NCBI RefSeq assembly: GCF_900106525.1
Contig: NZ_FNOG01000005.1
Location: 1 to 64,000, forward strand
Direction: 5' to 3'
Length of the DNA: 64,000 bases
Source: Lysobacter enzymogenes
Lineage (GTDB): Bacteria > Pseudomonadota > Gammaproteobacteria > Xanthomonadales > Xanthomonadaceae
Part shown: positions 6,302-12,262 of the stretch, in pieces
How the letters are laid out: each line of letters opens with the position of its first letter
Position numbering within the stretch: position 1 is the stretch's first letter
Made by a program: the position numbers and the translations under genes
The notes under the pieces: generated by a model
The model's database searches: none
Told to the model about the DNA's origin: nothing
Seen by the model: the letters and a program-made list of their open reading frames with translations, nothing else

Positions 6302-7942
6302 TCACGACGGCCCCACCGACGGCAAGGTGACGACAAAGCGCGTTCCTTCGCCTAAGCCGCCGCTTACCGCGATCACCTGACCATCATGCGCATGCACCAG
6401 TTCGCGCACGACTGTGAGCCCGATGCCCAACCCTGTGCCATTGACTCCCACAGCGCGCACCTCCTGAACAAACGGCTCGAACACATTCGTCAGCGCCTCC
6501 GGCGCGATGCCTATTCCACTGTCTGCGACACACACTTCGATCTGGGCACCTACTTCACGGACCGACAAGGCGATCTCGCCCTCCTCTGGCGTGTACTTAG
6601 AGGCGTTATCCAGCAGGTTGCGCAGGACTTGGGTGAGACGGTCCGCATCGCCATCGACTATCAGCCGCTCCGAAGAAGCACTCATGCTAAAGCGCTGCCG
6701 GCGCGCCTCCATTACAGAACGGCAAGCCTCGGCCGCCAACTCGGCGATCAGCACCATGTCGACGGGCCGACGATCGATCTGGAACTTCCCGCTTTTCGCC
6801 CGCGCCACATCGACCAGGTCGCCTATTAACCGGGAGATATGCATCACTTCGCGTTCGATGATGCGCTGCATATCAATCCTTACGTTCGCACTCTCCGACC
6901 TGAGCATGGTCGCAGCGATCAGAATCGGCGTCAGCGGATTGCGAAGCTCATGGGCAACCATCGCCATCGCCTGCTGCTGATGTTGATAGGCGGCTTCGGC
7001 CGTCGCTTGCGACTGCCGCGAGTTCAACGCTGCCAGCACCAGATTCTCGTTGGCTTCCTGAAGCTGATCGATGCGCGCGCCAGGCCGAACGGCGGCCGCC
7101 TGATAACGCGAGAACGGCCGACTCCGCGGCGCCCGCACTGCGCTATCGCCAGGGCTTTCGCGTACTACGCGATCCCCGTAGAAGGCGTACCTGCCCCGAC
7201 CTTTTTGTCCTTTTTTGGCGCGGTACATCGCGGCGTCGGCCCGATCGATCAAGATCTCAACATCGTCTCCATCGATCGGAAAAAGGCTGATTCCGATGCT
7301 CGCCGACAAGCGCAGGACATGCGCCCCCATTCGACACGGAACTCCCAGCGCATCGATGAGCTTTTCGGCCGTTGCGCCAGCATCCGACGCGTCTGCCACC
7401 CTGTTCAACAAGATCAGGAACTCATCTCCGCCGTAGCGACTGATCATGTCTCCTTCTCGCGTCACGGCCGCGAGCCGATGCGCAGCCAACCGCAATACTT
7501 CGTCGCCGACGGTGTGGCCGAGCGTGTCGTTGATCCACTTGAAGTCGTCCAGGTCGATAAACAGCAATGCGACGAACTCGCCATAACGACGGGAGTTCGC
7601 TATAGCAGTGCGGAAACGCTCCGATAGGCGCTCGCGATTGGGCAGCGAGGTAAGGGAATCCATGCCCACCGACCGAACCGCCTCGTCGAGTTTGTGGGTG
7701 GCGGCTTCGGACTCCTGGCGTGCTTGCAGAGCGGCGATGATGAGCTGCTCATTGACCTGCACCAGATCGGCTGGGTCCGTGCTGCCAGGGACATGCGCGT
7801 TCGCGCCACTTTGGTGAATCCGAGCCGCCAGAAGCCTCTCGATCTTCTGCGCCTTTGACTGCTGGCAAGCCCCCCTGCCTCGAACCATTCTGCGGTTGCC
7901 GCGGCGATGGGGCCCGGATCCGAATCTAGCCACGTCCGTCAT
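6302..7942 (-). CDS. Hybrid diguanylate cyclase / histidine kinase (GGDEF-HisKA-HATPase)
   Basis: A 546-residue signalling protein with two output modules. The GGDEF domain (about residues 92-255) has the active-site loop RYGGDEF (171-175) and an intact inhibitory RxxD site (REGD, 162-165), so c-di-GMP synthesis with feedback is expected. The kinase follows: HisKA phospho-acceptor His331 in MVAHELRNPL, N-box NLLDNASKY (about 442), G1 DSGIGI (474) and G2 GTGLGIGL. No receiver, PAS or membrane segment is visible. A similar helix (NEQLIIAALQARQ; NENLVLAALNSRQ) precedes each module. ATG 7942 overlaps the end of the KaiC-like gene by 17 bp; in-frame ATG 8047 would overlap much more. It is the third gene of the operon. 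Confidence 0.9.
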   Translation of the reverse strand: MTDVARFGSGPHRRGNRRMVRGRGACQQSKAQKIERLLAARIHQSGANAHVPGSTDPADLVQVNEQLIIAALQARQESEAATHKLDEAVRSVGMDSLTSLPNRERLSERFRTAIANSRRYGEFVALLFIDLDDFKWINDTLGHTVGDEVLRLAAHRLAAVTREGDMISRYGGDEFLILLNRVADASDAGATAEKLIDALGVPCRMGAHVLRLSASIGISLFPIDGDDVEILIDRADAAMYRAKKGQKGRGRYAFYGDRVVRESPGDSAVRAPRSRPFSRYQAAAVRPGARIDQLQEANENLVLAALNSRQSQATAEAAYQHQQQAMAMVAHELRNPLTPILIAATMLRSESANVRIDMQRIIEREVMHISRLIGDLVDVARAKSGKFQIDRRPVDMVLIAELAAEACRSVMEARRQRFSMSASSERLIVDGDADRLTQVLRNLLDNASKYTPEEGEIALSVREVGAQIEVCVADSGIGIAPEALTNVFEPFVQEVRAVGVNGTGLGIGLTVVRELVHAHDGQVIAVSGGLGEGTRFVVTLPSVGPS

Positions 7943-9404
7943 CGCAAGTATCGCGAGTCCCGGCTTTGCGGGTGGGCCGTCCGCCCAGAAGGCCTTCGCG
8001 ATCGTCCAGCCGTCCGGAAATCCGTAGACCATCGATGTCAATTTCATACAGCCGCAAATCGTTCGAATGGGGGCTGGCCCGAACTTTGACTACCGCAATG
8101 ACCCGCAACAGTCGACTATCGATCTCGATATAGCGCTGCACGATGATGGCGTCGGTCAGGAACGCGGTGCCGTAGGGGCTGAAGCGCAAGTCGGTGTAGC
8201 GATCCTCCAATTCCGACGTCATCAGCAGGCTCACGCCGGCATGGGCCATCGCGGAAACCAGGCGCGCCAGAGACTGACGGAAATCCTCGCGGAAAGTCGG
8301 CGCCAACGCCAGTTCGAACGCCGACAGCGAATCAATGACCACCCGAGTGGCGCCGAGACGCTCCACCTCCTTGAGCAACAGCAGAATCACCTCGTCTATG
8401 GACAGGTCGCTGGCGCGGCTATCGACTAGGCCGACGCGCCCTGTCTCAATCAATTCGGTCAGCCGTTCGTTGCGGCCACGGTTGGGCTGCTGCTCGAACA
8501 CGGCAATCACGCCCCGCTCTCCCGCGCGATCCCCCTCGCTCAGGAACGCGGAGGCCAAGATGCTCTTTCCCGAGCCGGATGGACCCGCGACGAGCAGCGA
8601 GTACCCCTGGGGCAAGCCGCCTCCGAGCATTTCGTCCAAAGTGGCGTTGCCCATCCCCAGCCGCGGCTTGGCGCCGGCAGCCAGGCCCATAGCCGCTACC
8701 GCGATCCGGGCGGGCGCGAATACTTCGATGCCCTGCGGGCCGATGCGGAAAGTATGCAGCCCCGGCAAGATGGCCTGGCCGCGCATCTTCAGCACTTCCA
8801 TTTTCCGCACCATCGAGTTGCGCTGCACGCTTTGCCGCAACCAGATCAATCCATCGGCCACGGTGAACACTGGGTTGGCCTCACTGTCGTTGAAGTACTC
8901 CCCGATCAGAAAGGTAGTCGCCTGCCAACTGGTCATCGCGATCCCCAACTGCTGGACGAAGTGCTGCAAATCGCCGAGCCGATCGCCCGCCGAAACGCCC
9001 GCGAGCATCACGGAACGGAACGAATCAACAAAAACAAGGGCGGGACCGGATTTCGCCACCTCGGCTTCGATGCGTTGCAATACCCGATCAAGACTTCCGG
9101 CCTGGATCTCTTCGCCAAGGTTAACGAACCGCACCGAGCGATTGATCGCCGTGTCGTCGAAGAATTCGAACTGCTGCTGATAGCGAAGCATCTTTAGCGG
9201 GGGCTCGCCCAGAACCGTGAAATACAACGCCGGACGTTGCGGCGTCGCCAAGGCGAACATGATCTGATGCGCAAGCGTCGTTTTTCCGCATCCGGGAGGG
9301 CCTGCGATGAGATTGAAGGAGTACTCGGGCAAGCCGCCGCCCAAGACGGTGTCCAGGCCTGGGACCCCGGTGGCCAGACGGGCGATGGTCACTTTGCTGT
9401 TCAT
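7926..9404 (-). CDS. KaiC-like double RecA/ATPase domain protein
   Basis: A 492-residue protein with two KaiC domains. CI has Walker A GPPGCGKTT (35-43) and Walker B ALVFVDS (122-128). CII has Walker A GPSGSGKS (274-281) and Walker B RVVIDS (354-359). The KaiC catalytic Glu pairs are partly changed: LGE at 65-67 and FEQ at 303-305. By my alignment the cyanobacterial autophosphorylation Ser/Thr pair maps to Ala414-Phe415 in YGTAFLTD, so canonical KaiC phosphorylation is unlikely. The C-terminal tail (about 465-492) is polar and basic. It lies between an unknown protein (4-bp ATGA overlap) and the GGDEF/kinase gene (17-bp overlap), arguing for a joint ATPase-signalling role rather than a clock. 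Confidence 0.92.
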   Translation of the reverse strand: MNSKVTIARLATGVPGLDTVLGGGLPEYSFNLIAGPPGCGKTTLAHQIMFALATPQRPALYFTVLGEPPLKMLRYQQQFEFFDDTAINRSVRFVNLGEEIQAGSLDRVLQRIEAEVAKSGPALVFVDSFRSVMLAGVSAGDRLGDLQHFVQQLGIAMTSWQATTFLIGEYFNDSEANPVFTVADGLIWLRQSVQRNSMVRKMEVLKMRGQAILPGLHTFRIGPQGIEVFAPARIAVAAMGLAAGAKPRLGMGNATLDEMLGGGLPQGYSLLVAGPSGSGKSILASAFLSEGDRAGERGVIAVFEQQPNRGRNERLTELIETGRVGLVDSRASDLSIDEVILLLLKEVERLGATRVVIDSLSAFELALAPTFREDFRQSLARLVSAMAHAGVSLLMTSELEDRYTDLRFSPYGTAFLTDAIIVQRYIEIDSRLLRVIAVVKVRASPHSNDLRLYEIDIDGLRISGRLDDREGLLGGRPTRKAGTRDTCDDGRG

Positions 9405-9829
9405 GGGGCGGCGTCCTGCGGCGGTATGTCACTGAGGGGGGCCGTCGGCACGGTGCGTAAGAGTCGCTGGGCCAACGAAGGACCGATCAGACTGGCGAGC
9501 AGCTCATGGAAGGTGCGCAGAAAATTGCTTCCGCTCGCCAATGCATCGGCTGCGCTGCATTGCATGAGGTATTCGCGAAGTCCATCGATGTCGTTTCCCT
9601 CCGCAGAAGAAGTCGACACCTGACTTAACCCAGGAGTGGCCGCGCTCGCCAGATTCAGGCTGCGTCTGTACAGCGCAGTGACGGCGATTGGCCCGACAAT
9701 GGGCCGCAATGCCGCCTCGAACTCGTACCAAATGGATGCAACTGCCTTGGCTATCGCTACTGCATCCGCACTTTCGCCAACGGCATGCGTCAATCGATAA
9801 TCGATTCCCTGATTTTCCCGATCTTCCAT
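9401..9829 (-). CDS. Hypothetical protein, first gene of the KaiC-like operon
   Basis: A 142-residue soluble, mostly helical-looking protein with no motif I recognise. It is not KaiB-like: there is no thioredoxin-fold pattern. Visible segments are AIAKAVASIWYEFEAALRPI, VTALYRRSLNLASAA and a C-terminal helix NFLRTFHELLASLIGPSLAQ followed by RLLRTVP. It could be a small partner or helical adaptor. The ATGA overlap with the KaiC-like gene shows translational coupling. The promoter should lie just upstream of 9829. Confidence 0.72.
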   Translation of the reverse strand: MEDRENQGIDYRLTHAVGESADAVAIAKAVASIWYEFEAALRPIVGPIAVTALYRRSLNLASAATPGLSQVSTSSAEGNDIDGLREYLMQCSAADALASGSNFLRTFHELLASLIGPSLAQRLLRTVPTAPLSDIPPQDAAP

Positions 9830-10216: not shown

Positions 10217-10399
10217 TTACTTTTCCAGCTTGTCGCGCACCTTGTCGGCCAGCTCGCCGGACTTGGCCTGGGCCTTCCCGAGGTTTTTCTCAGCCATGCC
10301 TTCCAATTCGATCCGTTTATCTCCGGTCATCTTGCCGATCGCTTCCTTGACCGATCCCTTGACCTGCTTCGCCACGCCTTCGATACGATTCTTGTCCAT
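10217..10399 (-). CDS. CsbD family stress protein
   Basis: A 60-residue CsbD-like protein: MDKNRIEGVAKQVKGSVKEA, IGKMTGDKRIELEGMAEKN, then GKAQAKSGELADKVRDKLEK. Family members are small, charged, helical proteins induced in general stress; their molecular role is unknown. ATG 10399 begins the family's conserved N-terminus and follows an AGAGGTG-like ribosome binding site. It may respond to the PAS-LuxR regulator encoded just upstream, but the two are separate genes 125 bp apart. Confidence 0.9.
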   Translation of the reverse strand: MDKNRIEGVAKQVKGSVKEAIGKMTGDKRIELEGMAEKNLGKAQAKSGELADKVRDKLEK

Positions 10400-10524: not shown

Positions 10525-12042
10525 TTACGAGCGAGGAGTGCGTTTCTTGGCCCGGCCGGGCGACCCACTGGCGTTGCCGAAGAATCCGCGCTCGCGCGCC
10601 CATACGATCGCTTCGCTTCTGCTGTGGACGCCCAGCTTCGAATACAGGGCAGCGACATGATTGCGCACGGTGTTCGGCGCCAAGCCCAAACGCGCGGCAA
10701 CCTCCTTGTCGGCCAGGCCTTCGCAGATCAGACCCAGGACGTCGCGCTCGCGAGCCGTCAACTCGCCCAGTTCGGTCTGCTTGGCTCCCGTCGCGCCGCT
10801 TCGCCGCACGTTCGCCAGTTTTTCGATCAGGGTCTGGCTGAACCACGACGCGTCCTGCATCACCGTTTCGATCGCGCTCACCAGTTCCAGCTCGTTGCGT
10901 TTTCGATCGCTTATGTCCATCAGCACGAGCAGATAGCATTCGGCGCCATGGATGCTGACGGTCTCGGCCGACACGAGGCAGTCCAACGCACTGCCGTCTT
11001 TTCGCGCGATGCGGAATTCGAGGTTCTGCAAGCCGGTCTTTTTGGTCAGCGCGCTGCCTACTTGCAGCGCATCGGCGGTGAGTTCGAACAAGCCCGAACC
11101 TGCGAGCGTCTTGCCGATCACGTCTTCGGCGCCGTAGCCCGTCGCCATGGAAAAGGCCTCGTTGGTTTCCAGGATCGCCAAGCGGTCTGCGCTGCATACC
11201 AGGGTAGGTACCGGGGTCAGCTTGAAGGCTTTGGCGAAGCGTTCCTCGCTCTGGCGCAGCGCAACCTCGGCCTTTCGGCGCGGTTCCAGGTCCATGAAGG
11301 TAAACAGCATGCAGGCTTCCTCGCCCACTTCGATCGGCTGTCCCGCCACGATAACCAACTTGCTCCCTCCCTCCGGAAGGCTCAGTTCCGCCTCCATCTG
11401 TGGGATCGTCGCGCCTTCCCCCAGCCGCTGAACCGCCAACTCCCGATTCTGCGCACCCTCGAGCACATCCAACTCGTACACCGAACGGCCGATCACTCGA
11501 TCGCGCTCGTGGCCGGTCATCTCCAGGAAGCCCTGATTCACCTTGATATAGCGCAGATCGCCGAGCCGGCAAATCACCGCGGGCGACGGATTGGCGTTGA
11601 AGGTTTTCTCGAAACGCTGTTCCGCGCTCGCCCAATCGGTGGCGTCGGCCAAAATCAGCACCAGGCAGTCCGGCGCTCCATCGGCATCGGTCAGCACCAG
11701 GCTGCGCACACGATGGACCCAGCGCGCGTCCTCGTCGGCGACCGGCACCACTTCGACCACCACGTCGCTGAAGGCCTCTCCGGCCACTACGCGGTCGATC
11801 GGATAGCTGCCCTCGCCCAAGCGGTGATGGTTGCGATAGCGCAGTTGATAGCGGTCCCGATACTCGCTGACGGTCGCGCCCAGGCCGTCGAGCGCTTCCA
11901 CGCCATGCATCTTCAAGGCGGCGTCGTTGGCCCAGACGATGAGTTGATCGGGCTCGATCAGGATCACGCCGTCGCTTAGACCACGAATGATCTGCTGCAA
12001 CTGCTGGCGGTCGGTCTGGCGTTGCAGGACGGGGTCGTTCAT
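10525..12042 (-). CDS. Multi-PAS LuxR-type transcriptional regulator
   Basis: A 505-residue regulator. Three PAS-like domains follow each other (roughly residues 10-125, 130-245 and 250-370), seen in patterns such as GLSDGVILIEPDQLIVWAND, NPSPAVICRLGDLRYIKVNQ, and TPVPTLVCSADRLAILETNE. The C-terminus is a LuxR helix-turn-helix, LTARERDVLGLICEGLADKE followed by VAARLGLAPNTVRNHVAALY, and a basic tail. No membrane segment or receiver is present, so it probably senses a cytoplasmic signal by PAS domains and binds DNA directly. ATG 12042 is used; ATG 12075 or a further upstream start would add only low-complexity residues. It is divergent from the membrane protein at 12263. Confidence 0.88.
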   Translation of the reverse strand: MNDPVLQRQTDRQQLQQIIRGLSDGVILIEPDQLIVWANDAALKMHGVEALDGLGATVSEYRDRYQLRYRNHHRLGEGSYPIDRVVAGEAFSDVVVEVVPVADEDARWVHRVRSLVLTDADGAPDCLVLILADATDWASAEQRFEKTFNANPSPAVICRLGDLRYIKVNQGFLEMTGHERDRVIGRSVYELDVLEGAQNRELAVQRLGEGATIPQMEAELSLPEGGSKLVIVAGQPIEVGEEACMLFTFMDLEPRRKAEVALRQSEERFAKAFKLTPVPTLVCSADRLAILETNEAFSMATGYGAEDVIGKTLAGSGLFELTADALQVGSALTKKTGLQNLEFRIARKDGSALDCLVSAETVSIHGAECYLLVLMDISDRKRNELELVSAIETVMQDASWFSQTLIEKLANVRRSGATGAKQTELGELTARERDVLGLICEGLADKEVAARLGLAPNTVRNHVAALYSKLGVHSRSEAIVWARERGFFGNASGSPGRAKKRTPRS

Positions 12043-12262
12043 GGACAGTCGCGTGCTCGGGGGTGCGGCGATCATCGTGTAGACGCCGTGATTGCCGGAT
12101 GAGACGAATGCACCAGGGTCGGTAGTGCATTTGAACGGCGCTGCGCAGCGCCGTCCTGCGCAGACTGATCGCACAGGATGAACGGCCCGCGACGCGACTG
12201 CGATTCGATCCGGCCGACGTTAGCCGTTCAAGCCTGCCCCCACGGTATTTTCGAGGTATTCC

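Follow-up and report, generated by a model that had tools for sequence, protein, structure and literature searches.

In the first 64,000 nucleotides of contig NZ_FNOG01000005.1 from Lysobacter enzymogenes (assembly GCF_900106525.1; 6.26 Mb in 23 contigs), a stretch that we call the window throughout, three open reading frames (ORFs) on the minus strand make up an operon. In order, they encode a small protein, here called U, a KaiC-like ATPase, and an enzyme that combines a GGDEF domain with the HisKA and HATPase_c domains of a histidine kinase. A 4-bp overlap joins the genes for U and KaiC, and one of 17 bp those for KaiC and the enzyme, the latter counted from the enzyme's ATG at 7942, whereas its longest mechanical ORF opens at 8047. 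An earlier note, made from the letters of this DNA, had described the same order and overlaps, and the ORF coordinates (with the ATG at 7942) bear it out. The features are as follows.

9401..9829, minus strand: U, 142 aa, first gene of the operon, predicted all-helical (ORF list, upstream position, structure model)
7926..9404, minus strand: KaiC-like two-domain ATPase, 492 aa (PF06745, two stretches)
8712..9374, minus strand: CI-type KaiC domain, Glu pair LGE (PF06745 match, alignment to solved KaiC)
8016..8642, minus strand: CII-type KaiC domain, Glu pair FEQ (PF06745 match, alignment to solved KaiC)
8160..8165, minus strand: Ala414-Phe415 in the place of the clock phospho-acceptors Ser-Thr (alignment to solved KaiC)
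6302..7942, minus strand: output enzyme, 546 aa, reading coil, ANE helix, GGDEF, ANE helix, HisKA, HATPase_c (Pfam)
7703..7753, minus strand: first ANE helix, before GGDEF, a weak match (whole-genome profile search, E 0.016)
7202..7663, minus strand: GGDEF domain with GGDEF and RxxD (REGD) motifs (Pfam, motif reading)
6971..7090, minus strand: second ANE helix, before HisKA, one of the 11 profile rows (profile search)
6788..6979, minus strand: HisKA, H box HELRNPL (Pfam, motif reading)
6317..6652, minus strand: HATPase_c (Pfam)

Three proteins and their motifs

The KaiC-like protein is matched by PF06745 in two stretches (E 8e-59), corresponding to two KaiC ATPase domains, and aligns to a solved KaiC across both; the two Walker A motifs are retained. 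The phosphosite pair of the clock protein (Ser431/Thr432) falls on Ala414-Phe415. This pair and the catalytic Glu pairs LGE (CI) and FEQ (CII) had been read in the same way in the earlier note. All are well conserved among the 85 orthologues, that is, the 86 loci described below minus the one with a stop in kaiC. The phosphosite columns hold Ala in 85/85 and Phe in 84/85; the CI pair is G-E with a one-residue insertion (Gly 85/85, Glu 85/85), and the CII pair is E-Q (Glu 85/85, Gln 80/85). The clock KaiC models TIGR02655 and NF006799 set cut-offs of 546.25 and 408 bits, which the protein, at 120.5 and 206 bits, misses by a wide margin, and KaiB (PF07689) has 0 matches in the window's genome, with the control match present in Synechococcus elongatus. 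Taken together, the fixed Ala-Phe, the missing KaiB match, and the low clock scores support the previously voiced opinion that this is not a clock, and the whole suggests an ATP-driven signalling switch instead. Three other genomes of the genus (G001, G002, and G016; loci L033, L034, and L035) carry a different KaiC of 28% identity, which has Ser-Tyr at the phosphosites and no U at the locus; in L033 it is followed by a weakly kinase-like ORF.

U is present once in the window's genome. In an alignment of 60 members, L41, P43, G46, R56, L111, G116, and L119 are invariant, and a Pfam scan of these members (E<=0.1) returned no family that matches more than one of them. A PDB sequence search with U (E<=1) gave no match. 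The structure model is all-helical (pLDDT 79.3, pTM 0.73), and its comparison with known folds gave no clear match. Towards KaiA there is likewise no Pfam, PDB-sequence, or clear fold match, although a missing match excludes nothing.

In the output enzyme, GGDEF (PF00990, E 2e-45), HisKA, and HATPase_c all score above the Pfam cut-offs, and the Pfam scan found no sensor domain. None of the three proteins has a membrane-like hydrophobic stretch (the best 19-residue Kyte-Doolittle mean is 1.48). By its motifs, the enzyme qualifies as a diguanylate cyclase, with a GGDEF motif and an RxxD inhibitory site, and is predicted to synthesize cyclic di-GMP (c-di-GMP); with its H box and HATPase_c, it likewise reads as a HisKA-type histidine kinase. 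Within the family, the catalytic GGDEF motif is kept in 31/33 domains, RxxD in 33/33, and the H-box His in 72/77 kinase parts. Compared with the close congener G008, dN/dS amounts to 0.20 for U, 0.07 for KaiC, and 0.21 for the enzyme.

Conservation and distribution of the three genes

A scan of genome contigs yielded 182 relatives; the 80 that scored best were kept, and their best segments are 68-77% identical. These are mostly from Pseudomonas, and the counts below describe the core of the family; no title among them names Xanthomonas. Five more loci at 65-94% identity came from the 60 nearest genomes (the own genome being among them), which together with the window gives 86 loci. U lies upstream of kaiC in 86/86 (split over two ORFs in L044 and cut by the contig start in L096). 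A GGDEF and/or histidine kinase gene follows kaiC in 81/86 loci, or in 81/84 where the contig reaches far enough, as in L040 and L051 it ends at or just behind kaiC. Outside these 81, L057 has an ORF with an ANE helix and L116 has a GGDEF gene on the opposite strand. No fourth gene is conserved: leaving aside clusters that overlap the trio, the widest cluster of flanking ORFs covers 19/86 loci, and no response regulator gene is a constant neighbour of the operon across the 86. Since the trio recurs in 81/84 of the loci able to show it, the linkage is not due to chance. The earlier note had named the absence of conserved linkage between kaiC and GGDEF/kinase genes as grounds for dropping its proposal, and with linkage in 81/84 loci the proposal withstands that test. 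In the window's own genus, the KaiC subfamily was found in 2/20 genomes, one of them G008.

To what extent U accompanies KaiC was also followed in wider samples. A class sample of 369 evenly drawn genomes, with four first-look KaiC candidates and 10 U candidates scored per genome, gave a KaiC match at E<=1e-20 in 30/369 genomes, nine of which reach at least 48% identity. Six of these nine have U at E<=0.001, and a seventh (G232) has a weaker U match adjoining KaiC; U was not found in the remaining two, G075 and G368, the kaiC of the latter being a fragment. At the G075 locus (L160), the ORF before kaiC looks Crp/Fnr-like by eye. Among the class-sample genomes with only a distant KaiC (<=33%), the U domain occurs in 1/21, namely G213, and in the other 339 genomes without a KaiC match no U was found. 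The phylum sample has U in 4/398 genomes, including the window's; the other three (G748, G698, and G614) carry a subfamily KaiC of 50-71% identity beside it, and at the G614 locus no output gene was detected. The distant-KaiC loci that were fetched (L032-L038, L163-L166) have U in 0/11.

The ANE helix and the exchange of outputs

The output enzymes share a helix, ANE (consensus QLREANEQLVLAALSAQ), that precedes the output domains. Its profile has 41 positions and 11 rows, drawn from the output ORFs that were then counted. At the 81 loci, every output ORF has the helix (83/83, including the 11 that built the profile), and 77/83 have at least two matches, weak ones counted. When the 11,354 ORFs from all loci were searched, seven others matched at E<0.01, each of them an output gene that belongs to a further copy or a remnant (L175, L170, L057, L171, L131, L126, and L162). 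The window's genome holds 21 GGDEF matches, whereas ANE is confined to one protein, the output enzyme, where it matches in two places (E 0.016 and E 5e-16, the latter by construction, being the profile's own row).

In the enzymes with both GGDEF and kinase domains, ANE precedes GGDEF in 26/27, and in 24/27 a copy lies after GGDEF and ahead of the H box. Kinase-only ORFs have two ANE motifs before the H box in 46/50, and in 42 of the 46 the spacing of the two is 33-34 residues. By this placement, the kinase-only enzymes look like the longer form minus GGDEF. In a quick KaiC tree, 46 kinase-only rows form one clade (SH-aLRT 98) of Pseudomonas, Stutzerimonas, and one MAG (metagenome-assembled genome), and GGDEF was lost once, in this large Pseudomonas clade. 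Three GGDEF-only loci (L097, L111, and L118), in which the kinase part was not found, are scattered over the same tree. The joint output to c-di-GMP and phospho-transfer put forward in the earlier note, for which the window's enzyme has the motifs, is not a constant of the family, given the loss of GGDEF in the Pseudomonas clade and the three loci without a detected kinase part.

Further afield, the outputs are swapped. Behind U and a KaiC of 49% identity, L161 carries REC-GGDEF-EAL. On a Paracoccus plasmid (L174), the series opens with a U-like protein of 138 aa, which scores 52 bits against a U profile from which it had been left out; next come a KaiC of 50% identity and an HWE kinase, and then a gene annotated as response regulator, whose receiver match lies under the Pfam cut-off. 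The complete trio with a GGDEF-kinase enzyme is found on a Caballeronia plasmid (L175), and on another Caballeronia plasmid (L176) the match to kaiC is broken into two parts with no annotated gene. G213 (L129:6546-7637) has U and GGDEF domains fused in one protein; by eye, regulator-like ORFs precede this fusion and a sigma-factor-like ORF follows it. A U-like gene is also present on the Polaromonas plasmid pH6NP1 (L173:4944-5333), with genes annotated as CheB, HAMP histidine kinase, and recombinase in its vicinity. Throughout, U and KaiC are the steadiest pair of the trio.

Proposed mechanism, alternatives, and known systems

What the sequence offers is the anatomy of the operon, the co-conservation of its parts, the absence of phosphosites, output motifs that are intact in the window's enzyme, the confinement of ANE to the enzymes, the fusion, and the exchange or loss of outputs. 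Because U and KaiC are constant while the outputs vary, the enzyme is sensorless, and the core-family helix is confined to the enzyme, the simplest model is one in which KaiC and U act as an input module that drives exchangeable outputs, forming a self-contained cytoplasmic three-part signalling cassette. We put the probability of this reading at roughly 60%. The KaiC-like protein would form a two-ring ATPase whose conformation, in the absence of the clock phosphosites, follows the nucleotide state, and U, a small helical partner dedicated to KaiC, would link or tune it. Both may then bind the enzyme, itself sensorless, at its repeated ANE helices, which are probably the coupling element, and thereby set its histidine kinase and/or diguanylate cyclase activity, with control presumably running from KaiC to the enzyme in response to a putative signal. 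A more far-reaching version, which we offer tentatively and with some doubt, sees in U a KaiC-dedicated adaptor outside KaiA/KaiB, which together with a non-phosphorylating KaiC might make a portable nucleotide-state input module, gripping ANE helices and running whichever output follows, be it a histidine kinase, a diguanylate cyclase, an enzyme that is both, REC-GGDEF-EAL, or an HWE kinase with a receiver.

Several observations weigh against the input-module model. Gene order by itself does not tell which part controls which, and the support comes from sequence. Parts are also found apart: no output gene was found at L086; G075 has a 55%-identical KaiC for which neither U nor a GGDEF/kinase neighbour was found; the U-like gene of pH6NP1 comes without a KaiC match at E<=1e-40; and the U-GGDEF fusion has no KaiC match within the surrounding 14 kb, which places U apart from a subfamily KaiC. 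In G008 (L027), a TAA at codon 110 interrupts kaiC, whereas the reading frames of U and the output enzyme are uninterrupted. On the enzyme side, the GGDEF motif is altered in 2/33 and the phospho-acceptor His is missing from 5/77 kinase parts. Lastly, a search at E<=10 detected no ANE in the REC-GGDEF-EAL protein (L161), the HWE kinase (L174), the GGDEF protein (L130), or the U-GGDEF fusion, and in the L127 kinase the match reaches only E 3. ANE therefore does not serve as the coupling element throughout the wider family.

Reversing the flow is an unlikely alternative. Here the enzyme would act on KaiC, with the kinase or c-di-GMP as input, KaiC as output (a nucleotide-driven regulator or remodeller), and U as loader. 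The linkage, being directionless, suits this idea equally, as does the strong constraint on KaiC (dN/dS 0.07, the lowest of the trio), but the enzyme has no sensor domain, and outputs that vary while U-KaiC persists are what one expects of an input module. That the three genes are merely co-expressed, their products never in direct contact, appears more improbable again: it fits loci without one part (L086, G075), but linkage in 86/86 and 81/84 loci whose flanks otherwise vary, a helix restricted to the output enzyme, and the U-GGDEF fusion speak against it. Very improbable, finally, is an hourglass or oscillator in which KaiC times by its ATPase alone, the part of KaiA or KaiB falls to U, and the enzyme acts as a SasA-like readout. 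This reading can point to KaiC homology over both domains, the adjoining kinase, and the timing role proposed for a Ramlibacter KaiC-kinase pair with phosphorylable residues (PMC3164672), but has to contend with a subfamily lacking the phosphosite pair, a genome without a KaiB match, and a U without similarity to any named family.

Most KaiC homologues found beyond the cyanobacteria lack an explanation (PMC5520375), and the linkage of KaiC to kinase/GGDEF genes is already known, having been in print since 2011 (PMC3164672). The Ramlibacter genome paper of that year described three kaiC contexts, the third of which ("black") has poorly conserved phosphosites, AF being among the listed profiles, and lies near histidine kinase, receiver, or GGDEF/EAL genes. 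Our loci resemble it in both respects; that context is described as heterogeneous, whereas here one fixed trio with U is found. Archaeal KaiC-like ATPases have been proposed as signal-transduction hubs, a proposal cited in PMC5847659. These, too, are KaiC relatives tied to two-component parts and not to a clock, yet they are archaeal and involve fusions such as KaiC-REC, while the present system is bacterial and pairs KaiC with U and a GGDEF/kinase enzyme. For U, the ANE helix, and the output swaps, we found no description in the open literature as represented by listings and the openings of abstracts, most subscription papers lying outside it.

With the cyanobacterial KaiABC-SasA clock, the operon shares a two-domain KaiC ATPase (by sequence) and a histidine kinase output. 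On the other hand, it lacks the Ser/Thr phosphosite pair and a KaiB match in the genome, has U as the small partner, and its output enzyme carries ANE helices and a GGDEF domain. A fixed trio, a dedicated partner, an enzyme-confined helix, and natural domain swaps together offer a concrete and testable system for studying KaiC without a clock, in soil bacteria amenable to laboratory work. If the model is true, the state of an ATPase would be joined to both c-di-GMP and phospho-signalling.

Upstream of the operon and on the same strand, a PAS-LuxR type regulator is encoded at window positions 10525-12174 (minus strand). Between it and U, a small ORF at 10217-10399 (minus strand) presumably resembles a CsbD-type stress protein.

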